Shown: positions 10,791 to 39,764 of the stretch, piece by piece | Layout: each line of letters opens with the position of its first letter | Numbering within the stretch: position 1 is the first letter of the stretch | DNA from: Candidatus Desulfofervidus auxilii | GTDB taxonomy: Bacteria > Desulfobacterota > Desulfofervidia > Desulfofervidales > Desulfofervidaceae | Length of the DNA stretch: 64,000 nt | Direction of reading: 5' to 3' | Assembly (NCBI RefSeq): GCF_001577525.1 | Contig: NZ_CP013015.1 | Span: 849,107-913,106, forward strand | Translations under genes and position numbers: made by a program | Notes under the pieces: model-generated | The model's input: only the letters and a program-made list of their open reading frames with translations | What the model was told of the DNA's origin: nothing | Databases searched by the model: none

Positions 10791-10850
10791 ACTGGAAATT
10801 ATATATCACGGAGAGACAATTGGTGTCAATGAGTTTTTTATTTTTACTCT

Positions 10851-11944: not shown

Positions 11945-11989
11945 GTGAACTACCCCTCCCTTACGGAAGGGGACTTCCCGGCGGAAAAG
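11945..11989 (-). mobile_element. minimal IS200/IS605-type end element
   Basis: This 45-bp palindromic segment joins the left-end sequence (CTTTTCCGCCGGGAAG, read on the minus strand after TTTAA) directly to the right terminus GGGGTAGTTCAC seen in the full IS605 element at 37726-39570. It has the form of a palindrome-associated mini-element. It provides the apparent first 15 codons of the traD reading frame. Confidence 0.55.
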
Positions 11990-12079
11990 TTAAATGAAGA
12001 GCCCAAACGCACCACAATCACTCTTTTAAGGCACTTTTCAGACATTTACACACCTTCCCATCCAGCTAAACTGCTTTTT

Positions 12080-14395
12080 ATGGCAAAATTCAAACTGCCA
12101 CAAATCAAAACCAGTCGTAAGGTAAGACGTCGTTATCTCAATATTACGGTTGTATTCATTTTTCTGCTTACTCTATTTACTTCCTTTTTCCCGCCAGTGT
12201 TTTCTACTCCTCAGAGGCAGTTTACAGGATATAGTCTTTCTTTTTTAATACTTCTATGGAACTACCGCAGTGAATTATTCAGACTGATACTCAAGGTTCT
12301 AAATAAAAATCAAAGCCAGGAGCCAGACTCCACAGTAAAAACACAGAACAAACTGCTTCATATAAAACGAGCCACAATTTCTTACGAAGGCCCACGTCCC
12401 TATTTAACACTGGGTTTTGAGGAAGAAACCGGGAAGGAAATTATCTGGCCCAATGAAAAGGAAGTTGCCCATATGGTAATGGTTGGCACAACAGGCAGTG
12501 GAAAGAGCAGCTTCTTGTTTAACCTTCTGTGGCAGCAGATGTTAAGAGGTGGAGGAGCAATATTTGTTGATGGTGGAAGAAATCCCCAGACCCTGAAAAA
12601 CCTGGTTTTCATGTGTGAGCAGGCACGGACTCTTTCCAGATTAAGGATAGTTGACCCGCGTGAGCCAAAAACCGGTCATGCCTATAACCCACTCAGTTCA
12701 GGCGATGCGGATGCCATCACGAACAAAATCATGAAAGTGCTAAATCCCATCCCCGCCGGTTCTGACGCAGAATACTACAAGAGCAAGATTTATCACGCTA
12801 CCGCAACACTGATAAGAGCCCTGACTTCCATTGGAAAACCCTTTAACATAAGGGATATCCTGTGTCTCTATTGCCTCCCTGAAATCTCCTTTAAAATCCT
12901 TGAGGAACAACTCGCCCGCTACGAACTATCAGATGCCCTGATTTCCCTGCGTACCCTGATCATGGAGACCAAGACCATCAGGTCTTTCCGGGATGATCTT
13001 TCAAATATAATTGCCAATCTGGGCAGTATAACCACTGGTGAAGTGGGGAAATCACTCTGCTCCCCGGTAACTCAGGTAAACCTCTATGATGCCGTCAAGA
13101 AGAGTCAGATTCTCTATTTTATGCTTCCAAGGATGAGTGATGCAGAAAAGGCCACACGCCTGGGACGACTGCTGCTTGGAGATATCCAGACCACCATAGG
13201 CCTCTTTTACGAAGAAAAAGAATTCAAACCCATCGTTCCTTTCTTGATAATACTTGATGAGTTTGGAAGCTATGCCAACCCTGAATTCGCTGTGGTATTT
13301 GAGCAGGCAAGAAAGGCCAACTTTTCCGTTATAGCTGCCATTCAATCCTTTGGAAATCTCTGCAATCCCTATACCGGTCTCTCAAGAGAGTTTATGCAGC
13401 AGGTACTTGGAAATTCAAATACAAGAATGTTTCTCACTGTAAGCGACACAGAAACAGCGGAACTGGCCGCAAGGCTTGTAGGTAGAGACATAACCTATTT
13501 CAGGAGTTTTTCCAGTTCAACCCAGGAATCAGAAGGTGCTGACACAATCTCGGCCAAGAGATTTCTCAACCCTGTCAGGACAGACAGGGAGACAGTTTCA
13601 GAAGGTTACAGTGAAAGGTATGATTACAGGCTCAGACCGGAAGTATTCATGCATGAACTTGGAAAAATAAAGGGAAGAGCAATAGTGGACTTCAAGGACG
13701 GAAACCCCATCTTTGCCAGGGTATGCTGGCTGAAGCCGGGTGTGCCTCCAGACTACACTTATGAGGAGAAAATTCCTCACTTTGCTCCAGGAGAGGCAGA
13801 ACCTCTCTCACTCTGGGAAAGGGTGCAGGTAAAACTCAAATACATGAATGTATCTTTTGAAGAAGAAAAGAAAGAAAAACAACCTTCCTGCAAACTCCTG
13901 GTAAGTGCCAGAAAAATAAAAGGAAGCACACAGTATATATCTCTGATTGTTGATGGGAAAGAGATAGTAGTTAACTACAGCGGAAAGATTCACAAAAGAG
14001 ATGAAGTAATTGCTGCCTATAGGGGTATAGAATACGGACTACACGCTGCACAGGATAAGGGCTACAAGGTAATCAATGTTTATTCCCCCATAAAAACCGT
14101 TATCGGTCAGTTGGGAACAGGAAATGTAGCTGAACAGTCTGCTGAAAAACCCCTGTTTGATAGAGTAAAACAGCTTGAAAAAGAACTCACGGTCACCTAC
14201 CACCAGCCAGGTCCTGAGGAGACAGGTCTGCTGGATGAATATTTTCCACAGAGTCAAACCCAGGAAGCAGGAAACAGGCAGGCCAAAGCAGGACAGAAAC
14301 CTCCTGCTGAGCAACAAAAAGAAATGCATCCAGATAATCAAGAATCCACGTCAGAACAGACTGAACCCTGGTATAGCTCTCTACTTGAAGAGTAG
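12080..14395 (+). CDS. TraD/VirD4-like type IV coupling ATPase
   Basis: About 771 aa from the ATG at 12080. The frame is open back to 11945, but that part lies in an IS605 mini-element. After one or two N-terminal membrane segments comes Walker A (MVGTTGSGKSSFLFNLLWQ) and Walker B (PFLIILDEFGSYANP), then AAIQSFGNL. This is the pattern of coupling proteins that pump DNA into a type IV channel. The C-terminal 250 residues are not standard: YISLIVDGKEIVVNYSG then AAYRGIEYGLHAAQDKGY and INVYSPIKTVIGQL have the strand-helix order of an RNase H fold, without the acidic catalytic set. It is the clearest conjugation gene here. No relaxase is adjacent. Confidence 0.85.
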   Translation: MAKFKLPQIKTSRKVRRRYLNITVVFIFLLTLFTSFFPPVFSTPQRQFTGYSLSFLILLWNYRSELFRLILKVLNKNQSQEPDSTVKTQNKLLHIKRATISYEGPRPYLTLGFEEETGKEIIWPNEKEVAHMVMVGTTGSGKSSFLFNLLWQQMLRGGGAIFVDGGRNPQTLKNLVFMCEQARTLSRLRIVDPREPKTGHAYNPLSSGDADAITNKIMKVLNPIPAGSDAEYYKSKIYHATATLIRALTSIGKPFNIRDILCLYCLPEISFKILEEQLARYELSDALISLRTLIMETKTIRSFRDDLSNIIANLGSITTGEVGKSLCSPVTQVNLYDAVKKSQILYFMLPRMSDAEKATRLGRLLLGDIQTTIGLFYEEKEFKPIVPFLIILDEFGSYANPEFAVVFEQARKANFSVIAAIQSFGNLCNPYTGLSREFMQQVLGNSNTRMFLTVSDTETAELAARLVGRDITYFRSFSSSTQESEGADTISAKRFLNPVRTDRETVSEGYSERYDYRLRPEVFMHELGKIKGRAIVDFKDGNPIFARVCWLKPGVPPDYTYEEKIPHFAPGEAEPLSLWERVQVKLKYMNVSFEEEKKEKQPSCKLLVSARKIKGSTQYISLIVDGKEIVVNYSGKIHKRDEVIAAYRGIEYGLHAAQDKGYKVINVYSPIKTVIGQLGTGNVAEQSAEKPLFDRVKQLEKELTVTYHQPGPEETGLLDEYFPQSQTQEAGNRQAKAGQKPPAEQQKEMHPDNQESTSEQTEPWYSSLLEE

Positions 14396-14820: not shown

Positions 14821-15165
14821 ATGGGAGATGTTTACCTGTTTAATCACAGCATTGACCCTCAGGACATTCAGGAATCACTTGGTATTGTCTGTGGTCTTTG
14901 CGTTTATTCCCGCAATGTCATAATGGATAAGTTTGCAAGGTTCAAGGATTTCATAGGAGGCAAGATAGGAACATACGAGAAGCTGGTCAGGAAAGCCGTG
15001 GAGCATGCTCAGAATGACCTTGCAGAGCAGGCTGCCCGTCGAAAGGCCAATGCGGTAGTAAATGTAACCATTGAGCTTGTTCCCACGGCACTCCTTGGCG
15101 AAGGCACTCAGATATGTGCTCTGGCTTACGGCACAGCAGTTCGGCTCAAACCCGGGCTACTCTAA
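14821..15165 (+). CDS. YbjQ-like (DUF74) protein
   Basis: 114 aa. The AVEHAQNDLAEQAARRKANAVVNVTIELVP segment and the strand-helix repeats match the YbjQ/DUF74 'heavy-metal-binding' pentameric fold (A..A...A...GANAVV..). GAGGAGG precedes the ATG. It overlaps the end of the convergent HD gene by 4 nt. Its function on mobile elements is not known. Confidence 0.6.
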   Translation: MGDVYLFNHSIDPQDIQESLGIVCGLCVYSRNVIMDKFARFKDFIGGKIGTYEKLVRKAVEHAQNDLAEQAARRKANAVVNVTIELVPTALLGEGTQICALAYGTAVRLKPGLL

Positions 15166-16466
15166 GTTTGAGTTTGTTTTTCCTGCCTGGCTACCTGGGC
15201 GTCAGAATTAGTCAGCAGCTCAAGCATCTCCTTTGTGCCTGGAGGAACGTTTACAGGAAGTTCGACAGGTCTGTGGTGGTGGGAAACCACAAGTAACATC
15301 CGGGTTATGCCCTCCTGAGAAAATCCCTCCATGGGAATTCCCCTGAGTATGGCACCGGAAAGTACATCGTGATACATGCCTGTTTTCATCCATTTTCCAT
15401 CTATTTTTCCATAGGTAAGGATTTTACCAAGGTCATGTGAAAGCCCACACATGGCGACTTCTTTTTTATCCATTTCAGGTGAAGCATTATCAAGCATCTT
15501 CTCCATTACCTCAACCGAATGCCGGTACAGTCCTCCTTCTGCTCCGCCATGTCCTCCGGAATCAACACTCGCAGGCCATTGCCGATAGGCCTGAAGCACA
15601 CCAAGAACCTCAGCAAGTGCCGGTGAAAACCAGCCTTCCTTCTTTGCTCTATCAAGAATTGCAGCATCGGGAGAGGCCTTTTTGAGATGAAAAAAGGCTT
15701 CTGAAACATTAGCCTGTACCTGAACAGCCGTAAGATGACTCTTATCTCGAATAAAATACCTCCGGCATAAACACATTCCTGCCACCAAACAGCCACAGGT
15801 GCCAATAGTCAAAAACATGCAGCAAAAACTGCACAACACCGCCCATCTGAGGTCCTGCCGCACCCTGGAGGCAGTCCTGATCAGTGTTCTTTCAACCCTG
15901 GCTGTTTCCCTGCGGTTTTCTGACAGGAGTTTCTTTATTGCCTCATCGGGTTTGTTTTTTAAGTACGCTGGCCTGGACGTTCTGAATAGCTCCTGAAATA
16001 AATCCTTCTGTTTTTTCTTTCCACCACTGCTATCAGGGACAACCGTCTTTCCCATCCAGCTGGAAAACTTCAAAAACCACCTGTCGATGGTTTCTGAATC
16101 AGGAACTCTCCTGGAATTCCTTCGCATCTGGCTGAGATAATAAGTAAGCATCTGTTTTCTGTAATCAAGTTCTGCCTTCCTTTGCTCCATCTTTATGACT
16201 GTTTCAATTAAACTCATGGCTTCGTCCAGAAAATACCTTGGTTTCTTGATAAACACATCACTTACTTTGCTAAATATGGAAATAGGAGATTTATAAAGAA
16301 ACTTTATGGTCTTTTCTACCTCAATAGAGAGACGATGACTTTCCCTGTATATACCAGACTGTCTCATTCTCGGAGGTGCCGCAGGCCTTGTGGTAAGAAG
16401 AACATATCCAAGACCCGCTGCAATGATGATCAGAAAGAAAAATGCCTCAATACCCCTGCTTGGCAT
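15162..16466 (-). CDS. membrane HD-domain protein (TraI_2/MOBH-like HD region)
   Basis: 434 aa. It has an N-terminal membrane anchor (residues 8-26), a helical linker rich in Arg/Lys, and a second hydrophobic, Cys-rich segment near residues 210-235. The C-terminal HD module follows: GLYRHSVEVM, GLSHDLGKILTYG, YHDVLSGAIL, VVSHHHRP, LTNSDAQVAR. All His/Asp ligands of the HD site are present. The layout recalls the HD domain of MOBH relaxases, but no nicking domain is seen. A link to conjugation is inferred from the neighbouring traD. Confidence 0.6.
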   Translation of the reverse strand: MPSRGIEAFFFLIIIAAGLGYVLLTTRPAAPPRMRQSGIYRESHRLSIEVEKTIKFLYKSPISIFSKVSDVFIKKPRYFLDEAMSLIETVIKMEQRKAELDYRKQMLTYYLSQMRRNSRRVPDSETIDRWFLKFSSWMGKTVVPDSSGGKKKQKDLFQELFRTSRPAYLKNKPDEAIKKLLSENRRETARVERTLIRTASRVRQDLRWAVLCSFCCMFLTIGTCGCLVAGMCLCRRYFIRDKSHLTAVQVQANVSEAFFHLKKASPDAAILDRAKKEGWFSPALAEVLGVLQAYRQWPASVDSGGHGGAEGGLYRHSVEVMEKMLDNASPEMDKKEVAMCGLSHDLGKILTYGKIDGKWMKTGMYHDVLSGAILRGIPMEGFSQEGITRMLLVVSHHHRPVELPVNVPPGTKEMLELLTNSDAQVARQEKQTQT

Positions 16467-16583
16467 AGTTCAGAGTTTAACCCTTTGATTTTTTGTAAAC
16501 ATCTCCACAATGGTGCACATTTGACATGCCAGAGGCACTGGTTTGACCTTTTAAGCATTTATGATTTTTCACAAAAAGAACAC

Positions 16584-17141
16584 ATGCAGCTCTCTGCATG
16601 GCTGGATATTATCGGGTTAATATTCATACTGAGCATCTGTTTTATCTGTTACAGAGAAGGGGCACTGTGGCCGATACTCTTTCTTTGTGGTTCCACCCTG
16701 GCCCACCTTCTGGCCACCAGCCCGGAATTTCAACAAAGGATCAGAACCGCCTTCCCCTCACTTGAAGAGGCAGTACCCTCACATTACACCATCCCGGTTG
16801 CCATCTTTGTCATAACTCTGTTTACATCTCACTACCTTGCCCGCTACATCGGGATAAAGATAGACCATTCTGCGATAAGAGTGCTGGGAACTTTAAACAG
16901 ACTCCTGGGAGGAATTCTGGGAGTTATCCTTGCTCTGACCATTGTGGCATGGGGGTATCACTTTGTAAGCTCTCATTCTCCTGATCTGGCAGTATATTGT
17001 GAAGGTTCATCTGTATGTAGATGGTGTGTTGAACAGGAAGAAAGATTTAACTTCGGCGAAAGAATAGCACGTATAGTAAGGGGAGAAGTGGAAAAAACAA
17101 GAGATGTTATTGAGCAGAAACCTCAATCAGCACGAAAGTAA
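16584..17141 (+). CDS. CvpA-family-like membrane protein
   Basis: About 185 aa from the ATG at 16584 (MQLSAWLDIIGL). The frame is open upstream but reads through the divergent gene. Four hydrophobic segments, a short ALLHLL-type loop and the GGILGVILALTIVAWGYHF helix resemble CvpA/colicin-V-production proteins. The tail is hydrophilic. Role unknown. Confidence 0.5.
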   Translation: MQLSAWLDIIGLIFILSICFICYREGALWPILFLCGSTLAHLLATSPEFQQRIRTAFPSLEEAVPSHYTIPVAIFVITLFTSHYLARYIGIKIDHSAIRVLGTLNRLLGGILGVILALTIVAWGYHFVSSHSPDLAVYCEGSSVCRWCVEQEERFNFGERIARIVRGEVEKTRDVIEQKPQSARK

Positions 17142-21117: not shown

Positions 21118-21120
21118 AAT

Positions 21121-22434: not shown

Positions 22435-22733
22435 ATAAAGAAGAAATTTTAAAGAGGATAAGGGAAAATAAAGATAAAACAAAAAGTTTTGGAGTCAAAA
22501 GAATAGGGATTTTTGGCTCTGCAGTAAGGGATGAAATGAGTGGTGGGAGCGATATTGATGTTGTTGTGGAATTTGAGAGGGGTAAAGCGACATTTAAGAA
22601 TGTCTGTGGTCTTGTTGATTTCCTTGAGGAACTTTTTGGCAGAGAAGTTGATATTTTAACTCCTGATGGAATTGATTCCATAAGAATAAAGCATGTTAGG
22701 GAGGAGATAAAGAGGAATGTTGAATATGTCTAA
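22431..22733 (+). CDS. mntA: MntA-type minimal nucleotidyltransferase antitoxin
   Basis: 100 aa. GIFGSAVRDEMSGGSDIDVVVEF is the GS..R(8-10)SDxD nucleotidyltransferase motif, and the third acid lies in REVDILT. MntA antitoxins AMPylate their HepT partner to silence it. It overlaps both hsdS and hepT. Its place inside a restriction operon suggests an added guard or stabiliser. Confidence 0.9.
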   Translation: MNKEEILKRIRENKDKTKSFGVKRIGIFGSAVRDEMSGGSDIDVVVEFERGKATFKNVCGLVDFLEELFGREVDILTPDGIDSIRIKHVREEIKRNVEYV

Positions 22734-23079
22734 GCGAGGCGACAGAGAGTTTTTAATGGATATGCTCATTGCTTGCGAGAAAATAATGAAATACACGAGA
22801 GATTTATCTTATGAAGATTTCCGCAGGAATGATATGGTTATTGATGCTGTTGTAAGGAACATTGAAATCTTGGGAGAAGCATCCAAAAACATCTCGGAAG
22901 GACTAAAGAAAAGGTATCCAGAAGTTGAATGGCGAGAAATCTCAAGAACAAGAGACAAAATAATTCACTTTTACTTCGGTGTGGATTTAAGCATAGTTTG
23001 GGACATAATAACGGTGGACATTCCCCCTCTACGGAAAAAGCTTGAGAAGATAACAAAAGAAGAGGGTTGGGAAAAATGA
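22726..23079 (+). CDS. hepT: HepT-type HEPN toxin (RNase)
   Basis: About 117 aa. RTRDKIIHFYFGVD contains the HEPN RNase motif R-x4-H and the following x-Y that is the AMPylation target in HepT proteins. The ATG at 22726 has AGAGGA 9 nt upstream; the ATG at 22717 is less well placed. Its 3' end overlaps hsdR. Confidence 0.9.
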   Translation: MSKRGDREFLMDMLIACEKIMKYTRDLSYEDFRRNDMVIDAVVRNIEILGEASKNISEGLKKRYPEVEWREISRTRDKIIHFYFGVDLSIVWDIITVDIPPLRKKLEKITKEEGWEK

Positions 23080-25955
23080 AGCTAATAACAGAGAAAAGGG
23101 ATGTCCAAAATAGGGTAATAGATCATTTGCAGGCAATAGGCTGGGAGTATATTCCACCTGCTAATATTCAGGAGAAGAGAGAATATGATATTAAAGAGCC
23201 TTTCATTCTTGAAATTCTTGAGAAAAAACTGAAAGAGCTTAACAAAAGGATAATAACCGATGAAAACGCTCAAAATGTTATAAGAAGGCTAAGGCTTATA
23301 CCTTCCACACTCACAGGAAATCAAGAGTTTCTGGAATATTTGAGGGGCAAAAAGACGGTTTATGTTGAAAAAGAGAGGAGAGAAAGAAATTTTAAACTGA
23401 TAAATCTTGAAAATCCTGAAAACAATCATTTTGCCTTTACAAAAGAATACTGGTTTGAGGATAGAGAAAAAAGAAGAATGGATATTGTTTTTTTTATAAA
23501 CGGCATACCTATCTGCGATTTTCAACTAAAAAGTCCTACTGTCTGGGAGGCAGAAGAGGAGGCTTTTGAGCAGGTAAGAATTTACAGCAATGCCTTACCA
23601 GAACTTTTCAAATATCTTCAATTTTATGCAGTCTCGGAAGGATTAAGGCTCTTTTACGGCCCGACATGGAAATATGAATCAAAGACCTTCTACAGGTGGA
23701 AAATTGAAAACGGATTTAATTTTGAAAAACTTGTAAAGACTTTCTTTGATAGAAGGGAGGTAACTGAGACTCTCCGCTCGTATATAGTTTTTATGACAGT
23801 TGATGAAGAGCTCCAGAAATATATTTTGAAACAGCATCAGAGAAGGGCAATAGCAAAGATAATAAGGAGGGTTTTGGAGGAAAAGAAAAAGAAAGGTTTG
23901 ATATGGCATACTCAAGGAGCTTACAAAAGCCTTACAATGATTGTTTCTGCTGATGAACTGAAGAAAATACCTGAACTTGAGAATCCAACCGTAATTGTTG
24001 TCCTTGACAGACTTGAATTAGAGCATCAAATTTACCAGAATTTTCAGGCTTATGGCTTCCCAAACATTGTTAAAGCTGAAAGCAAAAATCACCTAAGAGA
24101 ATTGCTTGAAAGCGACTACAAAGGTCTAATTATTACAACAATACACAAATTTGAAAGGATGCCGAAACAGGTGAATGAAAGAGATAACATTATTGTTCTC
24201 GTAGATGAAGCCCACAGAAGTCAGGAAGGTGATTTAGGAAATTACATGCGTGGAGCTTTGCCAAATGCTTATTACTTCGGATTCACAGGCACGCCGATAG
24301 ACAGAACAAAGATTGGCAGAGGAACATTTATAGCATTTGGTTATCCACCAGATGAGCCCTACCTTGATAAATACACCATAGATGAATCAATAGAAGAAGG
24401 AACTACCGTTCCCCTATACTACACACTTGCGAAAATAGAGCTTCATGTGGATAAGGAAACCCTTGAGGAGGAGTTTTTCAGGGTTGTTGAAGAGGAAGGA
24501 ATTGGAAGCATTGAAGGAATAAATAAGGTCATAGAAAAAGCAGAGAAACTAAAGGCAGTGCTAAAAGCAAGAGATAGGATTGATAAGATAGCAAAGCATA
24601 TAGCTGAGCATTACAAAAAATTTGTTGAACCTCTTGGATTTAAGGCTTTCATAGTTGCAGTAGATAGGGAGGCATGCGCACTTTACAAGGAAGCCATTGA
24701 TAAGTATTTGCCAGAGGAATACACAAAGGTTGTATATACACCTGATTACAAAGATAACGAATTATTGAAAAAATACCACATTTCTGATGAGGAAGAGAAG
24801 AGAATAAGAAAGGATTTCAAATCTGCGGATAAATTGCCAAAAATCCTCATTGTCACAGAGAAGCTCCTTACCGGATATGATGCCCCCGTCCTTTATATCA
24901 TGTATCTTGATAAGCCCTTAAAAGATCATACTTTACTTCAAGCAATAGCAAGGATAAATAGACCCTATGTTGGAAAAAGTTGTGGATTGGTGATGGATTA
25001 CATAGGGATATTTGATAATTTACAGAGAGCCCTCGCTTTTTACTCAAAAGATGTAGAGGCGGGTCTTATTGATTTTGAGAAATTGAAAGAGAGATTCAAA
25101 GATTTGATGGAAAGTGTTGATAAGATTTTGAAAGAAATGGACTTAGAAGATGAATCAAAGAGGATTCAGAGTATAATCGATTACTTTTTTGAAGGAGAAA
25201 AAAGAAAAGAATTCATAAAGACTTTTAAGCAGATTCAGGAGATATATGAAATTTTATCCCCTGATGAGTTCTTAAGGGATTACATTGAAAAATACAAATT
25301 GCTGGTGCAGATTTATGAGCTAATCTATCAAACCTATAATCCTGAGGCTGAGAAAACGAAGATAAGGAGAGATATTCTAAAAAAGACAGAAAATTTGATA
25401 AAAGAAAATGTTGAACTTTTGCATATTGCAGATAATCTTCCTCTTTATGAGATAAACGAGGACATTGCGCGCACAATTAAAGCAGACAAAATTTCTCAAA
25501 GGGTGAAGATTGCAAACCTTTATAAGAGTGTAAAAGTGCACATTGAAAACAAAAGAAAAGAGAGCCCTTATTTAGTTTCAATTGCCAAAAAAGTTGAGGA
25601 AATAATTTCACAGCTTAGAGAAAGACAGAGAAGTGTTGAGTCTGCATTAGAAGAGCTTACAAGAATAGCAGAAGATATAGCAAAGGCTGAAGAAGAGCAA
25701 AAGAAGTCAGGACTCAACAAGGAGGAATTCAGTTACTTCTGGATATTAAGGAGACATGGTGTGAAAAATCCTGAGAAAATTTCAAAGGACATTTCCAATA
25801 TAATCGCCAAGAAAGAACACTGGATTTTTAATGAAAATGTTGAGCGAGAATTGCGAAAAGAGCTTTACAAGAAGCTCCTCGATTATAGTGGTGATGTTGT
25901 GAAATTGGTTAATGAACTTCTTGGCATTGATAGAATTATAAGAGGGGAAACATGA
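23076..25955 (+). CDS. hsdR: type I restriction endonuclease subunit HsdR
   Basis: 959 aa. The N-terminal PD-(D/E)xK nuclease is followed by the SF2 translocase. MDIVFFINGIPICDFQLKSP supplies D and the QxK pair. GLIWHTQGAYKSLTM is motif I in a degenerate form (GAYKS rather than GSGKS), VDEAHRSQEGDLG is motif II (DEAH), GFTGTPI is motif III, and LLQAIARINRPY is motif VI. The Walker A change Ser-Gly to Ala-Tyr is notable, although Lys-Ser is kept. It cuts unmodified DNA at a distance after translocation. Confidence 0.93.
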   Translation: MKLITEKRDVQNRVIDHLQAIGWEYIPPANIQEKREYDIKEPFILEILEKKLKELNKRIITDENAQNVIRRLRLIPSTLTGNQEFLEYLRGKKTVYVEKERRERNFKLINLENPENNHFAFTKEYWFEDREKRRMDIVFFINGIPICDFQLKSPTVWEAEEEAFEQVRIYSNALPELFKYLQFYAVSEGLRLFYGPTWKYESKTFYRWKIENGFNFEKLVKTFFDRREVTETLRSYIVFMTVDEELQKYILKQHQRRAIAKIIRRVLEEKKKKGLIWHTQGAYKSLTMIVSADELKKIPELENPTVIVVLDRLELEHQIYQNFQAYGFPNIVKAESKNHLRELLESDYKGLIITTIHKFERMPKQVNERDNIIVLVDEAHRSQEGDLGNYMRGALPNAYYFGFTGTPIDRTKIGRGTFIAFGYPPDEPYLDKYTIDESIEEGTTVPLYYTLAKIELHVDKETLEEEFFRVVEEEGIGSIEGINKVIEKAEKLKAVLKARDRIDKIAKHIAEHYKKFVEPLGFKAFIVAVDREACALYKEAIDKYLPEEYTKVVYTPDYKDNELLKKYHISDEEEKRIRKDFKSADKLPKILIVTEKLLTGYDAPVLYIMYLDKPLKDHTLLQAIARINRPYVGKSCGLVMDYIGIFDNLQRALAFYSKDVEAGLIDFEKLKERFKDLMESVDKILKEMDLEDESKRIQSIIDYFFEGEKRKEFIKTFKQIQEIYEILSPDEFLRDYIEKYKLLVQIYELIYQTYNPEAEKTKIRRDILKKTENLIKENVELLHIADNLPLYEINEDIARTIKADKISQRVKIANLYKSVKVHIENKRKESPYLVSIAKKVEEIISQLRERQRSVESALEELTRIAEDIAKAEEEQKKSGLNKEEFSYFWILRRHGVKNPEKISKDISNIIAKKEHWIFNENVERELRKELYKKLLDYSGDVVKLVNELLGIDRIIRGET

Positions 25956-26296
25956 CGAGTAAAACTACACGGGAAGATATATTAGAACTTTGTGGAAAGT
26001 GGCAGAAAGAATTAAGGGTTGATATAAAACAAATCCAAATAAGAGAAATGAAAAATAAGTGGGGCTCTTGTTCATCAAAAGGTGTGCTTACACTTAACAA
26101 AGAATTACTAAGCCTACCGTCCAAATATGTTGAATATGTTATAGTTCATGAACTTCTACATAGGATTGTTCCGAATCATGGGCGAACATTTAAAACCTTG
26201 TTTTATGTTTACCTTCCAAATTGGGAGGAATTGCATGAATATTTGGAATACAATGGAAAAGAGCAAAATTTACGGCGACGGCGGGCACTCACTTAA
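25952..26296 (+). CDS. YgjP/SprT-like zinc metallopeptidase
   Basis: 114 aa, shorter than most YgjP proteins. KWGSCSSKGVLTLNKELLSLP and VIVHELLHRIVPNHGRTF are the two family signatures; HELLH...H gives the HExxH zinc site and third ligand. Such genes often accompany type I restriction operons. It overlaps hsdR by ATGA. Its stop codon lies inside the attC-like R'' box at 26291-26297, so the cassette end defines the gene end. Confidence 0.85.
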   Translation: MTSKTTREDILELCGKWQKELRVDIKQIQIREMKNKWGSCSSKGVLTLNKELLSLPSKYVEYVIVHELLHRIVPNHGRTFKTLFYVYLPNWEELHEYLEYNGKEQNLRRRRALT

Positions 26297-26816: not shown

Positions 26817-26920
26817 GGGGGGTCAAAATTAAGTGGGAAAGGGGGTCAATTTTCAACGGGAATTAACAGGAAGTTTTAGATTCCAGTTAAATTTGGTAAA
26901 ACTTGCTAGGAGGAATAGAA

Positions 26921-28426
26921 ATGACAAAGGTTACAATATCTAAGGAACAAGGTAATGATTGGATAGATAAATTATGGAAGTGGGCAGATGAAAATAATGT
27001 GCCTGATCTGCATCTGAAGTGGGTTGAAGCTTTTGAAGTTGAATATCATGAAATGGAAATGACTGGAGTTATTAACAAAGTTAAGTGTTGGCGTGGTTTG
27101 CCAAGAAATAAAGAGAAGCTTTTAAGTTTAACTAAACTTGATCTTGTTGGTAACCAGCTTACACAGTTACCAAAAGAAATCGGTAATTTAGCTAACTTGA
27201 CTGAACTTCGTCTTGACGGTAATAAACTTACAGAAGTACCTGAAGAGATAGGAAATCTCACAAACTTAAGTAAACTTTGGCTTAGTTTTAATAAGTTCAC
27301 AGAGTTCCCAAAAGAGATTTGTAATCTGCCAAATTTAACTTACCTTAATCTTAGTTATAATCACCTTACAAAGTTACCGAAAGAAATTGCTAATCTTAAA
27401 AACTTAACTGAACTTGATATTAGCAGTAATGGTCTTACAAAACTGCCTAAAGAAATCTGTAACCTTATAAACTTAGTTTATCTTGATGTTGGAGTTGTTC
27501 CTTTCACAGCGAGTGAAGAAACTAATCAGCTTACAGAGTTGCCAGAAGAGATAGATAATCTTACAAACTTAACTGAACTCTATCTCAGTTATAACCGCCT
27601 TACAAAGTTGCCAAATAAGATAAGTAACTTGAAGAAGTTAACTGCGATTGATCTTAGTTATAATCAGTTTACAGAATTACCAAAAGAAGTCTGTAACCTT
27701 ACTAATTTAACTTACCTCAATATTAGTGGTAATAAACTGAAGAAACTGCCTCCAGAAATTAGTAATCTTACTAATCTAACCAAGCTTTATCTTAGTAACA
27801 ATAAGCTCACGAAATTGCCTGAGGGAATAAGTAACTTGACAGGTTTAACTATACTTGACCTTAGTAATAATCAATTTACAGAGATACCAAAAGAGGTCTA
27901 TAATCTTGGTAATTTAACCAAACTTGACTTTAGTAATAATCGACTTACAGAGTTACCAAGAGAGATAAATAATCTTACTAAGTTAATTAGACTTGATCTT
28001 AGTAACAATAAACTCACGAAATTGCCTGAGGGAATAAGCAACTTGACAGGTTTAACTATACTTGACCTTAGTAATAATCGGCTTACAAAACTGCCCAGGG
28101 AAATTTGTGCTCTCACTAATCTAACTTCTTTTGGTCTTAGCAACAATCAACTCACAGAAATTCCTCCAGAAATAGGCAATTTAACTAGTTTAACTGAACT
28201 TTGTCTTGATAATAATAAGCTTACAAAGCTGCCTAAAGAAATCTGTAATTTAACAAATCTAACTGAATTGTGTCTTAGAAATAACCCAAATTTAATCCTA
28301 ACATCAGAGCAGAAGGAATGGATAGAAATCCTTAAAGAATTAGAAATCCTTAAAGAAAAAGATCGGGATGTATTTATGGGTGGTGTATTTATAGATGTAG
28401 ATGATGACGACTTGTCTGGTAGGTAA
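26921..28426 (+). CDS. leucine-rich-repeat protein, ROCO/internalin-like repeats
   Basis: 501 aa from the ATG at 26921 (AGGAGG 7 nt upstream). A 70-residue N-terminal domain (DWIDKLWKWADENNVPD) precedes about 16 tandem 23-residue LRRs of the type LTKLPKEICNLTNLTELDLS. The last 50 residues are charged. No signal peptide, kinase or TIR domain is seen. The repeats are 69 bp at the DNA level and parts are almost identical (near 27800-27850 and 27990-28070), a sign of recent repeat duplication. Probably a protein-binding scaffold. Confidence 0.85.
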   Translation: MTKVTISKEQGNDWIDKLWKWADENNVPDLHLKWVEAFEVEYHEMEMTGVINKVKCWRGLPRNKEKLLSLTKLDLVGNQLTQLPKEIGNLANLTELRLDGNKLTEVPEEIGNLTNLSKLWLSFNKFTEFPKEICNLPNLTYLNLSYNHLTKLPKEIANLKNLTELDISSNGLTKLPKEICNLINLVYLDVGVVPFTASEETNQLTELPEEIDNLTNLTELYLSYNRLTKLPNKISNLKKLTAIDLSYNQFTELPKEVCNLTNLTYLNISGNKLKKLPPEISNLTNLTKLYLSNNKLTKLPEGISNLTGLTILDLSNNQFTEIPKEVYNLGNLTKLDFSNNRLTELPREINNLTKLIRLDLSNNKLTKLPEGISNLTGLTILDLSNNRLTKLPREICALTNLTSFGLSNNQLTEIPPEIGNLTSLTELCLDNNKLTKLPKEICNLTNLTELCLRNNPNLILTSEQKEWIEILKELEILKEKDRDVFMGGVFIDVDDDDLSGR

Positions 28427-28475
28427 GGTGGGGGCCCTATTGTCAAGACAGAAAATTATATAATTTAAGCCCGCC

Positions 28476-28596
28476 TTAAAGGGTGTAATATATCTCATAA
28501 GATGTCTTGTAGTCCAATGACTGATGGGGCCTCTCATTGTTGTAAAATTTAAAGTAACTTTCTATGCCTTCTTTTATTAGCCTGTTTAAAGCCGCT
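28476..28596 (-). pseudogene. IS3-family transposase C-terminal fragment
   Basis: Minus strand encodes EGIESYFKFYNNERPHQSLD followed by YKTSYEIY and a stop, the standard C-terminal end of IS3-type integrase-fold transposases. The rest of the element is gone. Confidence 0.7.
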
Positions 28597-28669
28597 GACA
28601 TAGGGAGTTGACAAAAAAGTATAAGGGAAAAGATGGGGGGATTGAAAGTAAAGGTAAATTTTAATGCAG

Positions 28670-29028
28670 AGCTTCCTTACAATCTCATCAAAAATCTCTT
28701 GAAATATACCACTTTCTTTAAACCTGCCATGACGGTTTTTAGAAAAGGTAGTGTGGTCAAGAACTTCATCATTCATATGTAGGCCTACAAACCACCTATA
28801 TCCAACCTGCCTGTCGGCAGAGGTATGCATCTTGACTTCTTCCCACAACTTTCTTTCTGAAGTGATACCATAAAGATACCCAATAAGGAGCATGCGGATA
28901 AGTACTTCAGGATCAATAGATGGACTGCCCATATTACTATAAAGATGTTTTACTTTGCTACGAATAAAAAAGTCCACATATTTATTGATGAGTCTTAAAA
29001 TATGGTTTTTGGGAATCATATCTGCCAT
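28670..29028 (-). pseudogene. IS5/IS1182-like transposase N-terminal fragment
   Basis: The minus strand encodes MADMIPKNHILRLINKYVDF, PSIDPEVLIRMLLIGYLYGI and DHTTFSKNRHGRFKESGIF, the DUF772 N-terminal region of IS1182-like DDE transposases. Recognisable sequence ends near 28670, before the first catalytic Asp, where IS3-like debris begins. It overlaps the tail of the Cas4-like gene by 47 nt. Confidence 0.75.
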
Positions 29029-29572
29029 ATTGAATAGGGAGGAGTGACTGTTTCATACCAAAACACTCTTTCCTGTAACTGCACACCTTACACCTGTTGG
29101 TATATCTCCTTTTTGGTACTTTACCCTGCTTTATCTCCCTGACCCTTTCTATACCCCACCTTACCAGAGTCTCAGCCTGCCGGTCAAGGACAAAAGGACC
29201 CACTCTTACATCATCTCTATAAACAAGGTAGCCTCTATTACATTTCCCGTAATTTTCCCTTACCAGAAGCACATAACTCAAAAGCTGTATCTTCTCTCCA
29301 TTGAAAACCTTTCCTAAATATGGCCTTTTCTTTACTTCCTCAACGATATACTCACCGGTTTCACAATCCTTCAAAATCCTGTCCGGCTTTCCACATAGAC
29401 CCAACTCAGAACAATAGAGAACCCTGCACCTATCTGACCCGTCATCCAATGAGATGACTTCAAATTTCCTGCCTTCCCGTTCAATTACAGACTTCGTTGA
29501 AAGTCTGGTTAAAACGAAAAGAATAATAGCAAGAATAATAACAACACCAGCAATACTAACACTGCTACCCAT
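28982..29572 (-). CDS. Cas4/Dna2-like nuclease, catalytic half with membrane anchor
   Basis: 196 aa. A membrane segment (residues 5-22) is followed by the PD-(D/E)xK core: GLCGKPDRIL (motif II Asp), EYIVEEVKKRPY (E-x-K), QLLSYVLLV (motif IV Gln/Tyr). The C-terminal Cys triad is RCKVCSYRKECF. With the Cys of the upstream half this completes the four-Cys iron-sulfur set of Cas4. The last 20 residues run into transposase debris. No cas1/cas2 is near, so a CRISPR role is unlikely. A plasmid DNA-processing role is an inference. Confidence 0.7.
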   Translation of the reverse strand: MGSSVSIAGVVIILAIILFVLTRLSTKSVIEREGRKFEVISLDDGSDRCRVLYCSELGLCGKPDRILKDCETGEYIVEEVKKRPYLGKVFNGEKIQLLSYVLLVRENYGKCNRGYLVYRDDVRVGPFVLDRQAETLVRWGIERVREIKQGKVPKRRYTNRCKVCSYRKECFGMKQSLLPIQYGRYDSQKPYFKTHQ

Positions 29573-29775
29573 TTTTCTTTTTCTCCTTTTGCCTCACGGA
29601 CCAGGTGCTCCTGGACTTCTCTATGATAAACCCTTCCCTCAGTCTGGTCCCTGGTGTCACACTTTAAATCAGGTATTTGTTCAAGATATACCGCTCTTGG
29701 ACAGAAAAAATACTGATTCAACTCACTTGAGTAAACAAGTATTTTCTTCTCTCTCACAATATTTTCCCTCTCCAT
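29509..29775 (-). CDS. Cas4/Dna2-like nuclease, N-terminal half
   Basis: 88 aa. SSELNQYFFCPRAVYLEQIP carries the first Fe-S cysteine of Cas4 proteins, and GRVYHREVQEHLV the motif I His. The frame ends in a run of Leu/Phe that looks like a membrane segment, overlapping the next gene by 64 nt in another frame. A -1 shift at the A-run near 29572-29580 would fuse both halves into one protein of about 260 aa with a central membrane helix. Confidence 0.65.
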   Translation of the reverse strand: MERENIVREKKILVYSSELNQYFFCPRAVYLEQIPDLKCDTRDQTEGRVYHREVQEHLVREAKGEKEKWVAVLVLLVLLLFLLLFFSF

Positions 29776-29991
29776 ATTTGTTTATAACTTTTCCGAATAC
29801 TGGCAAGTTGTAATATATGCCCTTTTAGGGCCAGAAAGCACTAATTCATACACCAAACACCATATTGCATTCTTTTATGTATTGATTATCATCTGCCATA
29901 TGAGACCATCCAACTGGATACTCGCTTCTGTCTTCATTTTTGCCATCTGGAACTATCCAGAAGAAAACCAGCAATTCATGTGAGAGGAAAG

Positions 29992-30441
29992 ATGGAAACA
30001 AAACTACCAGAAGAAGTGATTGCAGTATGCCATAAATACGGTATTTCCGGACAGACAATCTACATACCAAAAATATCTACTCACAAAAAAGAAAAAAGAA
30101 AGAAAATCCTTATTGCCTTGCTGGAGGAAATGGAAACTTTCTATGAAAACCACCTTGAGACCTTTCAAAGAGTTCCCCATCCCTTTACTGTCAGGCAGGT
30201 CAGAGCCAGATATTCCATTTCTACCTGGCTTGCTTCAACCGTGCTCAGAACAGCTCTGAGAACCTGGCGTCACTGGTTCAATAATTACGAAAAAATGATC
30301 TTTTCTGGCCTGTCTCCCAGGACAAAACCAGAATATCTACAAATACGCACACAACTCAGGAATGGATTGAAACCATCAGGCCGTGAAGACCTCATACAAA
30401 AAGCCAGAGAAAGCATACAAACCTGCCCCTGGCGTAACTGA
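29992..30441 (+). CDS. unknown basic helical protein upstream of parM
   Basis: 149 aa from the ATG at 29992 (AGAGGAAAG Shine-Dalgarno). A stretch with VRQVRARYSISTWLASTVLR and WRHWFNNYEKM looks like a helix-turn-helix-containing helical domain, but no family is recognised. It lies just before the C-rich repeats and the parM gene and might bind them. That is a guess from position. Confidence 0.5.
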   Translation: METKLPEEVIAVCHKYGISGQTIYIPKISTHKKEKRKKILIALLEEMETFYENHLETFQRVPHPFTVRQVRARYSISTWLASTVLRTALRTWRHWFNNYEKMIFSGLSPRTKPEYLQIRTQLRNGLKPSGREDLIQKARESIQTCPWRN

Positions 30442-30664: not shown

Positions 30665-31624
30665 ATGGAAGTACTTGCTGCAGACATAGGTTATGGCTTT
30701 ACAAAGGTAGTATCGGCTTCCAGGGTGAGGGTTTATCCAAGTGTCGTAATACCGAAACTCCACACACACATCACCGTTGATATTGACACAGGAGAAAGCC
30801 CCGACATTGTCTCATATGGAAATACTGAATATCTTTATGGATCTAAAGCAATGCGTTTTGGTAAGAAATCTCAGTTTCCCCCCAGACACCGCTGCTTTAC
30901 TCAAAGCAATACCTATGCAGTGCTTCTGCTTTCGGCTCTTTCACTGGTGCGTAACAGGAACGTCTATTTTGTCACCGGACTGCCTGTTTCGGTATACGAA
31001 AACGAGGGTATTAAAACTTCCTACCAGGAATGGGTGTTGAATATTCTTCGCCCGCATGGAGCAATTAACATCAAGGTTTTACCCCAGGCAATGGGGGCGT
31101 ATTATGATGCTGTTTTGGACATACAGGGCAAACCAATAGACAAAAATCTTTTGATGAAGAAATGCGCCGTTGTTGACATAGGATATTACACTACAGATAT
31201 TGTTGTTCTTGACCATCTGGACTTGATATACAGAGAAACCATCCCACTGGGTGTCTCAATTGCCTGTGAGTTTTTGGTCCAAGAACTTTCAAGCCAGAAG
31301 GAAATATCAATGCATGAAGCAGAAATGCTGCTCAGAGGAGAAAAATTATTCATCTGTGGTAAGCCGGTTGATGTAAGTAACACCATCGAGGCAGCAAAAG
31401 ACCGGGCATGGAATCTCATATCCACAGCAGTAACTGACCGCATAGGAAGAGGAGAGGATTTTCACTTTGTGATACCTGTGGGTGGTGGGGCTGTTCTTTA
31501 CAGAGATAAATTAGCCCAGCTTTTTAAAGAAGCTCACTTTTCTCATAACCCTTCACTGTCCAACGCTTACGGATATTTCAAGTATGGAATAAGACAAATC
31601 AGGAAGGGGTCTAAAGATGCCTAA
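30665..31624 (+). CDS. parM: actin-like plasmid segregation ATPase ParM
   Basis: 319 aa. Actin-fold phosphate loops are visible: VLAADIGYGFTKVV (phosphate 1), AVVDIGYYTTDIVV (phosphate 2), and PVGGGAVLY (adenosine motif), with the NVYFVTGLPVSVYEN strand typical of ParM/Alp proteins. It polymerises to push plasmid copies apart. AAGGAGG precedes the ATG. It overlaps parR by 8 nt. Confidence 0.9.
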   Translation: MEVLAADIGYGFTKVVSASRVRVYPSVVIPKLHTHITVDIDTGESPDIVSYGNTEYLYGSKAMRFGKKSQFPPRHRCFTQSNTYAVLLLSALSLVRNRNVYFVTGLPVSVYENEGIKTSYQEWVLNILRPHGAINIKVLPQAMGAYYDAVLDIQGKPIDKNLLMKKCAVVDIGYYTTDIVVLDHLDLIYRETIPLGVSIACEFLVQELSSQKEISMHEAEMLLRGEKLFICGKPVDVSNTIEAAKDRAWNLISTAVTDRIGRGEDFHFVIPVGGGAVLYRDKLAQLFKEAHFSHNPSLSNAYGYFKYGIRQIRKGSKDA

Positions 31625-31820
31625 AAAACCAGAAATAAGAATCAAACTGAACTTGAAGAACAGCTGGGATATTGAAATATACAACTGGCTCAAGAATGCT
31701 CCACGCACCGCATGGCCTGTCCTTGTCCGGCAGGCCATAGTTGAATACCTGCACTCCAAACACAAAGCTCCGCCTGTTTCCCTTCCTGACGATATTGATA
31801 AGAAATTGGACCGATTCTGA
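31617..31820 (+). CDS. parR: ParR-like ribbon-helix-helix adaptor
   Basis: 67 aa. RIKLNLKNSWDIEIYNWLKN then WPVLVRQAIVEYLHSK fits a ribbon-helix-helix: strand, helix, turn, helix. ParR binds the parC repeats and caps the ParM filament. Pairing with parM and the 8-nt overlap make this assignment good even though the sequence is short. Confidence 0.75.
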   Translation: MPKKPEIRIKLNLKNSWDIEIYNWLKNAPRTAWPVLVRQAIVEYLHSKHKAPPVSLPDDIDKKLDRF

Positions 31821-32729: not shown

Positions 32730-33143
32730 ATGAAACTGATTAAGAAGGCATACCTTGTCTGCCTTTCATACCGCCAGAGACCACCCCTGATCGTCTTCTT
32801 TTACGATATAGTTTCACTTGTTTATATTACAATATACTTATTCTTTGACATATTTGGCCCCTTTGCAAAAAATTCTTTTAGACAAATTAAGTATCTTTAT
32901 TCTACCTTTATTAACACGTATGTATTCCATAGGCAAAATAGGCCGATAGGCAGGCTTAGCCGGTGGCCTGAGGACAAAGTGGCTTTGGGGGTGTATGAGG
33001 AAGTGATTCTTGGTTGTGGTCTTACCAGTCCTATCCTTACCCAGGACAAATTAGAAGAGAAAATTGAGAGTACCTGGAGAGAGGTAGAGGATTTCAGAAG
33101 GAGCATTCAAAGCGTTTCACGATCAAGTGAAAACGCTTTTTAA
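32730..33143 (+). CDS. unknown membrane-associated protein
   Basis: 137 aa with one hydrophobic segment (IVFFYDIVSLVYITIYLFF, near residues 21-40) and a charged C-terminal half. AAAGGAGG precedes the ATG. Its last ten codons are part of the hairpin that precedes the next gene, so that sequence is under two constraints. No family recognised. Confidence 0.6.
   Translation: MKLIKKAYLVCLSYRQRPPLIVFFYDIVSLVYITIYLFFDIFGPFAKNSFRQIKYLYSTFINTYVFHRQNRPIGRLSRWPEDKVALGVYEEVILGCGLTSPILTQDKLEEKIESTWREVEDFRRSIQSVSRSSENAF
33109..33140 (+). promoter_or_regulatory. pre-Shine-Dalgarno hairpin c (GCGTTT type)
   Basis: AAAGCGTTTCAC (33109-33120) pairs with GTGAAAACGCTTT (33127-33139), one bulged base, loop GATCAA. 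AGAGG follows. Confidence 0.65.
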
Positions 33144-33155
33144 AGAGGTAGAAAG

Positions 33156-33407: not shown

Positions 33408-33440
33408 AAAAGCGTTTCACGATTAAGTGAAAACGCTTTT
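33408..33440 (+). promoter_or_regulatory. intergenic hairpin d (GCGTTT type)
   Basis: AAAAGCGTTTCAC (33408-33420) with GTGAAAACGCTTTT (33427-33440), loop GATTAA. A second AT-only palindrome (TTTTATAAA) lies between it and the AGGAGG at 33476. Confidence 0.65.
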
Positions 33441-33485
33441 TAAAAAGGCATTTTATAAAAAAGAAATTTTATAAAGGAGGTAAAG

Positions 33486-34006: not shown

Positions 34007-34102
34007 ATGAAAAAGGAAAGAATTAAAGAAAGTATTAAGGTCCATAAAAAAATTGCAAGAAAGCGTTTCCTGTTCTATGAAAACGCTTTTAAAGGAGAAT
34101 AA
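34007..34102 (+). CDS. small basic peptide overlapping a hairpin
   Basis: 31 aa (MKKERIKESIKVHKKIARKR, then FLFYENAFKGE). The start resembles the 45-aa peptide at 34538 (MKKE.(I/V)K..I..KV.K.IAR), so it may be a real small family. Its last 14 codons are hairpin f. Translation is not certain. Confidence 0.35.
   Translation: MKKERIKESIKVHKKIARKRFLFYENAFKGE
34060..34089 (+). promoter_or_regulatory. pre-Shine-Dalgarno hairpin f (GCGTTT type)
   Basis: AAAGCGTTT (34060-34068) with AAACGCTTT (34081-34089); loop CCTGTTCTATGA. AAAGGAG follows immediately. Confidence 0.65.
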
Positions 34103-34525
34103 ATGAATAAAAAAGTTTTTATCTCAGGTTCTATTTCGATAAAAAGACTTCCAAAAGAAGCTTTAAAATCTATAGACAAAATTATCTCAAAAAAGTTTGA
34201 GATATTAGTTGGGGATGCTAGAGGTGTTGATTCTCTGGTGCAAAGGTATTGTGCTAGCCGTGGCTATTACAATGTTAAAGTTTACTCAATCTATGATATT
34301 CCCAGAAATAAAATCAGTGATAAATTTAGATTTGAGAAAGTTGAAGTGACCGAATCAGTCAGAAGAAAAAGAGAGTCTGAGAGACAACAGGCAAAAGACC
34401 AAGCAATGACAAGAGATTGTGATTACTGCCTGGTCATCTGGAATGGGAAAAGTAAGGGAAGTTACGCAAACATTTTAAGGGCGAAAGAGTTGAAAAAAGG
34501 ACTTAAAGTAGTTATTAACAATTAA
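34103..34525 (+). CDS. SLOG-superfamily nucleotide-binding-like protein
   Basis: 140 aa. VFISGSISIKRLPKEA, FEILVGDARGVDSLVQRYC and RDCDYCLVIWNGKSKGSYAN follow the Rossmann-like SLOG/DprA-LOG order (G-S loop, G-DARG-D helix, then D..iW.G.S.Gs). SLOG domains bind nucleotides or their cyclic derivatives and act as sensors in defence systems. The close position to a DUF1874 ring-nuclease gene is suggestive. No effector domain is fused. Confidence 0.65.
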   Translation: MNKKVFISGSISIKRLPKEALKSIDKIISKKFEILVGDARGVDSLVQRYCASRGYYNVKVYSIYDIPRNKISDKFRFEKVEVTESVRRKRESERQQAKDQAMTRDCDYCLVIWNGKSKGSYANILRAKELKKGLKVVINN

Positions 34526-35449: not shown

Positions 35450-35482
35450 CAAAAGCGTTCCCTGTTTGTAAGAACGCTTTTG
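35450..35482 (+). promoter_or_regulatory. pre-Shine-Dalgarno hairpin h (compensated stem)
   Basis: CAAAAGCGTTC (35450-35460) pairs perfectly with GAACGCTTTTG (35472-35482). Compared with the other copies, the T-A pair at the stem top is C-G here on both arms. AAGGAGG follows. Confidence 0.65.
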
Positions 35483-35494
35483 AAGGAGGATAAG

Positions 35495-35701
35495 ATGAAA
35501 AGTAACTCCTGTGTTTTAAGCAAAATACTGGGAGGAGTAAAACTGGTTTCAGGTAGGACCTACGTCATTACTACAAAAAGCCTCCCACCGGATAGAAAAG
35601 CCACTATTGATAAACTTCTACCCCCCGGCACAAGCCTTGTAAGAGGCGTTCTTCTCTCCAGACCAGCCACAAGTCCCGAGATGATCAGAATTTTTACATA
35701 G
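35495..35701 (+). CDS. small unknown protein
   Basis: 68 aa from the ATG at 35495. VKLVSGRTYVITTKSLPPDR is strand-rich; the rest is Pro-rich. No family recognised. Confidence 0.5.
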   Translation: MKSNSCVLSKILGGVKLVSGRTYVITTKSLPPDRKATIDKLLPPGTSLVRGVLLSRPATSPEMIRIFT

Positions 35702-39704: not shown

Positions 39705-39736
39705 AAAAGCGTTTCCTGTTTTATGAAAACGCTTTT
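39705..39736 (+). promoter_or_regulatory. pre-Shine-Dalgarno hairpin i (GCGTTT type)
   Basis: AAAAGCGTTT (39705-39714) with AAACGCTTTT (39727-39736); loop CCTGTTTTATGA. GGAG follows 14 nt later. Confidence 0.65.
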
Positions 39737-39764
39737 AAATAAAAAAAGAAGGAGAATGAGATAA

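Follow-up and report, generated by a model that had tools for sequence, protein, structure and literature searches.

A predicted two-chain, membrane-anchored Cas4-family nuclease encoded by plasmids and conjugative elements

Introduction

The Cas4 nucleases described so far are soluble proteins of one chain, which take part in CRISPR adaptation, stand alone as solo genes, or belong to viruses. Members of the family (PF01930/TIGR00372), including its solo-Cas4 and MGE-Cas4 forms, share a fold, a first cysteine (Cys-1) with a C-x2-C-x5-C triad, a G..H motif I, a PD-(D/E)xK core and a glutamine past the core. Dna2, MGME1 and the Fe-S or RecB-type nucleases of the AddB-AdnAB kind belong to the same superfamily, and the Argonaute-associated Cas4 family ACE1 (PDB 9iac, 9iab) is one chain of about 270 aa.

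Here we analyse a locus of Candidatus Desulfofervidus auxilii, in a 64,000-nt stretch of its genome (positions 849107-913106; hereafter the window), where the same fold, as judged by sequence and model, and the same motifs are shared out between two short chains, A and B. Known Cas4 proteins, whether aligned here or described elsewhere, are single soluble chains, whereas in this pair motif I and the core are on separate chains, and each of these has a membrane helix. Likewise, Dna2, MGME1 and the AddB-AdnAB nucleases are single polypeptides or fused to a helicase and, unlike the pair, lack paired membrane anchors. We estimate a probability of roughly 60% that the locus encodes a two-chain, membrane-anchored Cas4-family nuclease acting at a site of DNA transfer. 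No earlier description of a membrane or split Cas4 was found in the open-access literature searched; a search of the Cas4 study by Hudaiberdiev et al. 2017 (PMC5704561) revealed no membrane-borne or split form.

Results

A Cas4 domain divided between two reading frames

An earlier note on this DNA had described two open frames, of 88 and 196 aa, with the marks of a Cas4 nuclease divided between them. Open reading frames, alignments and profiles all confirmed this description (Table 1). Chain A contains Cys25 (in YFFCPR) and the motif I residues Gly47 and His51, while alignments place G61-x-P63-D64, E79-x-K81, Q96 and C161-x2-C164-x5-C170 in chain B. Read from the sequence, the window pair has the full set of Cas4 residues, comprising the catalytic motifs (G..H in A; D, E-x-K and Q in B) and four cysteines for a predicted 4Fe-4S cluster. 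The frames overlap by 64 nt (29509-29572), and B lies in the -1 frame relative to A, at an offset of 203 nt. An alternative start of chain A, an in-frame GTG at codon 7 that follows GAGAGGG, would give a protein of 82 aa.

The two chains matched successive parts of the TIGR00372 Cas4 profile, chain A at positions 4-59 (E 3.8e-5) and chain B at positions 65-178 (E 5.5e-14). Chain B alone scored 52.4 bits, under the curated cut-off of 65 bits, whereas A and B joined scored 70.5 bits, above it; against PF01930, chain B reached 41.6 bits (cut-off 22.7). The Cas4 domain is thus interrupted after motif I and before the nuclease core, where each chain adds one membrane helix.

Profiles were also built from a mostly Cys-bearing set of relatives: the window, the planctomycete plasmids pSINAC03 and PALBO2, and G391, plus G122, the last two being genomes of the window's own phylum. 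Compared with soluble Cas4, the chain A set matched at 94.5% (E 7.9e-8) and chain B at 98.6% (E 1.1e-15), and window chain B matched that of Pseudomonas at 97% (E 1e-10). The Pseudomonas-lineage chain A had no significant Cas4 match on its own in the profile comparison and a weak match to the Cys-bearing chain A; this short chain was assigned to Cas4 because of its position, its motif and a bridging alignment.

AlphaFold models were obtained for chain B only, with a pLDDT of 62.5 for the window protein (from a shallow alignment, with TM-scores of 0.3-0.5) and of 80.8 for a Pseudomonas relative. The top Foldseek matches of both models were Cas4-family structures (ACE1, SSO0001 and Cas4-Cas1-Cas2), with ACE1 as the best match of each; Dna2, MGME1 and the AddB-AdnAB nucleases matched more weakly. 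No Argonaute was seen among the neighbours of the pair examined. A sequence search of the PDB gave weak Cas4 and EndoMS matches only. A single continuous soluble domain, as in other Cas4 proteins, was found neither in the pair nor in any of its relatives, which represent a variant architecture. By its motifs and fold the pair is a member of the Cas4 family, and its two-chain membrane architecture is new.

The same genome encodes a CRISPR-associated Cas4 (1579612-1580088) that also belongs to PF01930, but this protein is a soluble single chain of 165 aa and its gene adjoins cas1. The cas1 loci of the genome are at 1035400, 1079459 and 1580921, more than 120 kb from the window, and an identity of the pair as a CRISPR adaptation Cas4 (adjoining cas1/cas2) was rejected.

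The pair occurs once in its genome. At its 3' end, a fragment of an IS1182-type transposase gene overlaps the last codons of chain B and leaves the Cas4 domain itself intact; when 28440-29400 was used as a DNA query, no other copy of this region turned up in the genome. With the insertion sequence fragment and the single genomic copy in mind, we regard the activity of the window copy as putative.

Table 1. Positions of the Cas4-like pair, its sequence elements and neighbouring genes in the window.
Feature	Position	Strand	Size	Basis and remarks
TraG/TraD-type coupling protein	11945..14395	plus		PF12696 E 1.5e-12, PF10412, PF02534
HD-domain protein	15162..16466	minus		PF01966; G122 homologue, tblastn E 1.3e-26
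CvpA-like membrane protein	16335..17141	plus		PF02674; homologue of the gene just before G122 chain A, tblastn E 2.3e-6
Truncated IS1182-type transposase	28549..29028	minus		transpos_IS1182 (NCBIfam) E 1.4e-31; PF05598; about residues 15-128 of 488
Chain B	28982..29572	minus	196 aa	ORF; N-terminal membrane helix, PD-(D/E)xK core, Cys triad
N-terminal membrane helix of chain B (SVSIAGVVIILAIILFVLT)	29507..29563	minus		Kyte-Doolittle 2.86
Chain A	29509..29775	minus	88 aa from ATG	ORF; Cas4 N-terminal segment, then C-terminal tail-anchor helix
Tail-anchor helix of chain A (VAVLVLLVLLLFLLLFFSF)	29512..29568	minus		Kyte-Doolittle 3.33
Shine-Dalgarno of chain B (AAAAGGAG)	29583..29590	minus		Read from sequence; inside the chain A frame, 10 nt before ATG
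Protein adjoining the pair, no assigned family	29980..30441	plus	153 aa	G122 homologue: tblastn 31.6% over 177 aa, E 2.6e-19
ParM/ALP-type actin homologue (plasmid segregation type)	30665..31624	plus		PF17989 E 1.3e-19
Small protein	31617..31820	plus	67 aa	Homologue of a small ORF in the G122 element, tblastn E 3.6e-5

One stretch of DNA encodes two membrane helices

The earlier note had claimed a hydrophobic helix in both frames of the overlap, and the hydropathy values agree: each frame has a Kyte-Doolittle 19-mer above 2.8 (Table 1). The helix of chain B is encoded mostly by the same DNA as that of chain A, read in the -1 frame. When chain B was recoded synonymously with local codon usage, the A frame was membrane-like in 0.5% of 20,000 trials and the observed hydrophobicity was never reached. 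In the converse recoding, with A fixed, B was membrane-like in 10% of trials, which makes the B helix alone the weaker half of the case. Since NTT codons are read as TTN (Leu/Phe) in the next frame, a hydrophobic double reading is not miraculous. The double helix is above chance, yet its meaning is decided by the relatives and not by this test alone.

Basic residues (EKEKW) precede the chain A helix, predicting a cytoplasmic N-terminus, and others (RLSTK) follow the chain B helix, predicting a cytoplasmic C-terminal domain. By the positive-inside rule, both soluble halves would be cytoplasmic and the two helices antiparallel.

Double reading recurs in the A/B overlaps of two Pseudoalteromonas plasmids (L028 3899-3926, 28 nt; L054 3947-3992, 46 nt), where membrane-helix residues are encoded in both frames. 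Together with the window, three copies use a single stretch of DNA, read in two frames, for parts of both membrane helices. The annotated start of chain B in L054 looks too short.

The split is conserved among distant relatives

When plasmids were searched by tblastn with the A-B fusion as query, a weak match appeared on the Pseudomonas plasmid pQBR103. There, a 174-aa ORF begins with a membrane helix, and the 73-aa ORF preceding it has the motif I G..AH and a C-terminal membrane helix. With the pQBR103 protein as query, at least 160 plasmid records were matched (161-162 matches), spanning Pseudomonas megaplasmids, Halopseudomonas, Stutzerimonas, Vibrio and Photobacterium pAQU1-type plasmids and Pseudoalteromonas; many were large IncP-2-type Pseudomonas plasmids. 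Further relatives were found on pSINAC03 and PALBO2 and in G122 and G391. Most are annotated as hypothetical, chain A is unannotated or hypothetical, and the Pseudomonas plasmid chain B had no Pfam, PHROG or PADLOC match.

We read 22 loci besides the window, some of them near-identical, from plasmids of Pseudomonas, Halopseudomonas, Vibrio, Photobacterium, Pseudoalteromonas and Planctomycetota and from the two genomes of the window's own phylum. All 22 have the split pair, that is, chain A with a C-terminal helix followed by chain B with an N-terminal helix and the nuclease core, even where chain A is unannotated. No fused membrane-bearing form was found among the relatives inspected. Among the best 30 loci of a scan of the window's own phylum, three were membrane-bearing and all of these were split, while those of the remaining loci that were read from sequence encode soluble Cas4 or Cas4-Cas1 proteins whose N-terminal part is in one ORF with the rest. 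The earlier note had named homologues that are always fused and devoid of a membrane segment as an outcome that would refute it. The loci show otherwise: every relative with a membrane helix is split, and fused forms are confined to ordinary soluble Cas4 proteins. A broken pair was seen on the Planctomyces plasmid pPL62-2 (L053 3843-4342), with chain B out of frame and an IS701 transposase just upstream.

The fused reading had no close relatives in genome contigs, viral contigs or phages. In 99 relatives, the nearest matches were ordinary Cas4 and Cas4-Cas1 proteins, unrelated to the pair. Sampling of 398 Pseudomonadota genomes gave no match beyond the centre itself, indicating that the pair is rare on sampled chromosomes.

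Both chains are under purifying selection in the plasmid relatives, with dN/dS values, where calculable, of 0.08-0.27 for A and 0.08-0.10 for B. The four cysteines (Cys-1 and the triad) are kept in the window, pSINAC03, PALBO2 and G391 and are absent from G122 and the gammaproteobacterial members; in branches without them, function may differ from that of the others. This loss in several branches, the very short chain A and the neighbours of the pair in IncP-2 plasmids, which include replication and motility-type genes, would all suit a real two-chain membrane complex that is inactive as a nuclease and serves as a DNA-binding scaffold or a regulator of transfer, replication or segregation. We consider such an inactive complex unlikely, as D64, E79, K81, Q96 and the motif I G/H vary little or not at all among the aligned branches, a pattern that fits catalysis.

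Chain B appears to have its own start

Chain B is preceded, within gene A, by a Shine-Dalgarno sequence of its own (Table 1), from which it would be translated. The A-rich stretch before 29572 consists of two runs of five A. The earlier note had taken this stretch for a slip site, at which a -1 slip near 29575 would yield one protein with a central membrane segment. On our reading of the sequence, the stretch is instead the spacer between AAAAGGAG and the chain B ATG.

A programmed -1 ribosomal frameshift, producing one Cas4 with a single central membrane segment either alone or beside the two chains, would be consistent with the position of chain B in the -1 frame and with the SD-like AAAAGGAG upstream of the A-runs, as in dnaX-type signals. 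In addition, the RNA over the chain B start (29470-29580, minus strand), downstream of the A-run, folds better than shuffled sequences (z -3.42). However, the codons at the A-rich stretch (GGA GAA AAA GAA AAA TGG) allow only single A-AAA slips, with no slippery heptamer X-XXY-YYZ in frame at the window junction, and the most stable predicted stem starts more than 40 nt downstream. Moreover, the fused protein would have a single helix between motif I and the core, which would place the two halves of the active site on opposite sides of the membrane.

The relatives differ in how the two frames are joined. In G391, the stop of A is followed by GCC-ATG in frame 0; in pQBR103 and others, a 1-nt gap places B in the +1 frame; and elsewhere the genes overlap in the -1 frame by 1, 4, 7, 28, 46 or 64 nt. 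No single slip or base change can join chains whose frame relation is 0, +1 or -1 depending on the locus, and relatives with B in frame 0 or +1 are not joinable by a -1 slip. A conserved -1 frameshift or a sequencing error is thereby excluded as a general cause. We regard a programmed frameshift in the window as very improbable; given the RNA fold, low-level slippage may occur at this locus alone. The fold could also tune translation of chain B.

A one-base sequencing error, or a recent mutation, in a once-fused membrane Cas4 gene seems scarcely credible to us. A-runs are error-prone and the window copy is flanked by a broken insertion sequence, but the same split site is found in the 22 other loci, on different plasmids and genomes, where a fused membrane form is missing and where both plasmid genes are under purifying selection. 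Furthermore, the out-of-frame tail of window chain A is a membrane helix, as in all relatives, which recoding produced by chance at the 0.5% rate given above. Of the three readings offered by the earlier note, the relatives thus favour a two-chain membrane nuclease, with the split and the twin anchors recurring in them, and the variable frame relation speaks against both frameshift and base error.

The pair belongs to plasmids and conjugative elements

In G122 (L049), the genes beside the pair, encoding a coupling protein, an HD-domain protein, a CvpA-like protein, a 161-aa protein and a small ORF, all have homologues in the window, spread over 11.9-31.8 kb. The two coupling proteins are 48.9% identical (tblastn E 3e-180). 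A homologue of the 153-aa window protein is encoded just upstream of the G122 pair, with only the CvpA-like gene between them. On the G391 contig, an SLT transglycosylase gene lies just upstream of the pair and, further off, a MOBH relaxase TraI_2 (E 5.5e-53) and a coupling protein are encoded. MobF is near the pair on pSINAC03, one Pseudoalteromonas copy adjoins TraC and TraV, and the Vibrio and Photobacterium pAQU1-type plasmids that host the pair are MOBH/MPF_F.

The 22 other loci all have an A-B pair borne on a plasmid or near conjugation genes, and conjugation genes are near the pair in the window, G122, G391, pSINAC03 and Pseudoalteromonas. In the window, the coupling protein gene is 15 kb from the pair, and the genes beside the pair in IncP-2 plasmids are not transfer genes, so that a direct role in transfer can only be called possible. 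The ParM-like actin, SSB, RNase H, UvrD and SLT genes of the window fit a plasmid-derived element. No TraI_2 relaxase was found in the window's genome. A VirB4-type ATPase (PF19044) is encoded at 979506-980537, some 66 kb past the window, so that either a large conjugative element or a second one may be present; we claim no complete conjugation system. Because of this conjugation context, and because of the distance to the nearest cas1, we conclude that the pair is a component of plasmids and conjugative elements, in at least three bacterial groups, and not of CRISPR.

Several other features of the window were noted. Two ORFs with staphylococcal nuclease domains (9900-11408) lie beside the coupling protein gene. 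The same element region contains a type I restriction-modification system (hsdM, hsdS and hsdR-like) and a YgjP-type metallopeptidase gene (19594-26296). Between the restriction system and the Cas4 pair is a leucine-rich repeat ORF formed from 69-nt DNA repeats (26903-28426). A palindromic element (AAAGCGTTTC...GAAAACGCTTTT) occurs in five copies (33109-33148, 33409-33448, 34060-34110, 35451-35501 and 39706-39756). Directly after several of these copies come a ribosome-binding site of AAAGGAG type and an ATG, which suggests a common operator or leader sequence within the element.

The gene neighbourhoods also bear on whether the pair could serve its element in repair or recombination, as a membrane-bound nuclease that trims 5' ends with a nearby UvrD-type helicase, and not as a barrier to other DNA. 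A UvrD-type helicase gene adjoins the pair in IncP-2 plasmids, and such a gene and SSB are present elsewhere in the window element. However, the IncP-2 helicase gene is convergent with the pair and not co-operonic, it is not beside the pair in the Vibrio, planctomycete and G391 loci, and general repair would not be expected to need membrane anchoring. A repair role therefore appears improbable.

Discussion

Our analysis points to a Cas4-family nuclease made of two membrane-anchored chains. The two-chain membrane architecture is, judging by its recurrence in the sequences of the relatives, very highly probable. In the mechanism that we propose, chain A would provide the N-terminal part, with Cys-1 of the Fe-S site and the motif I histidine, and end in its tail-anchor helix, while chain B would begin with its own membrane helix and continue into the PD-(D/E)xK core and the other three cysteines. 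The antiparallel helices would allow the soluble halves to meet in the cytoplasm and complete a single Cas4 fold, whose active site, divided between the chains, would lie at the inner membrane. Given the residues present, A and B together are likely to form an active nuclease, presumably as a heterodimer with a Fe-S cluster in the Cys-bearing branches.

The heterodimer would trim or degrade DNA ends where DNA enters or leaves the cell. We infer such a role at the entry or transfer site from the plasmids and conjugative elements on which the pair is found; that it acts on transferred DNA at the membrane is possible, at slightly less than even odds. Its most likely target would be DNA that arrives in competition with the element; the second candidate is the strand that the element itself transfers. 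In Synechococcus, a host Cas4-like nuclease lowers the transfer or maintenance of RSF1010 (PMC10653904), and this analogy may serve as the nearest functional hint for the pair.

We tentatively suggest, with somewhat less confidence still, that these loci represent a family of Cas4-type nucleases that has so far gone unrecognised, whose members would be obligate two-chain enzymes of the inner membrane. The family would recur as an accessory on conjugative elements of different phyla and act as a DNA-entry nuclease, in plasmid-encoded exclusion or self-processing. In such enzymes, the active site and the Fe-S site would exist only once the tail-anchored half meets the N-anchored half at the membrane. 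Split, membrane-tethered Cas4 proteins have mostly been missed by annotation. The split active site offers an experimental handle, as either half alone would be expected to be inactive. Should its substrate indeed be DNA at the point of transfer, the pair would provide a plasmid-encoded nuclease, open to testing, that selects which molecules may enter or leave the cell.
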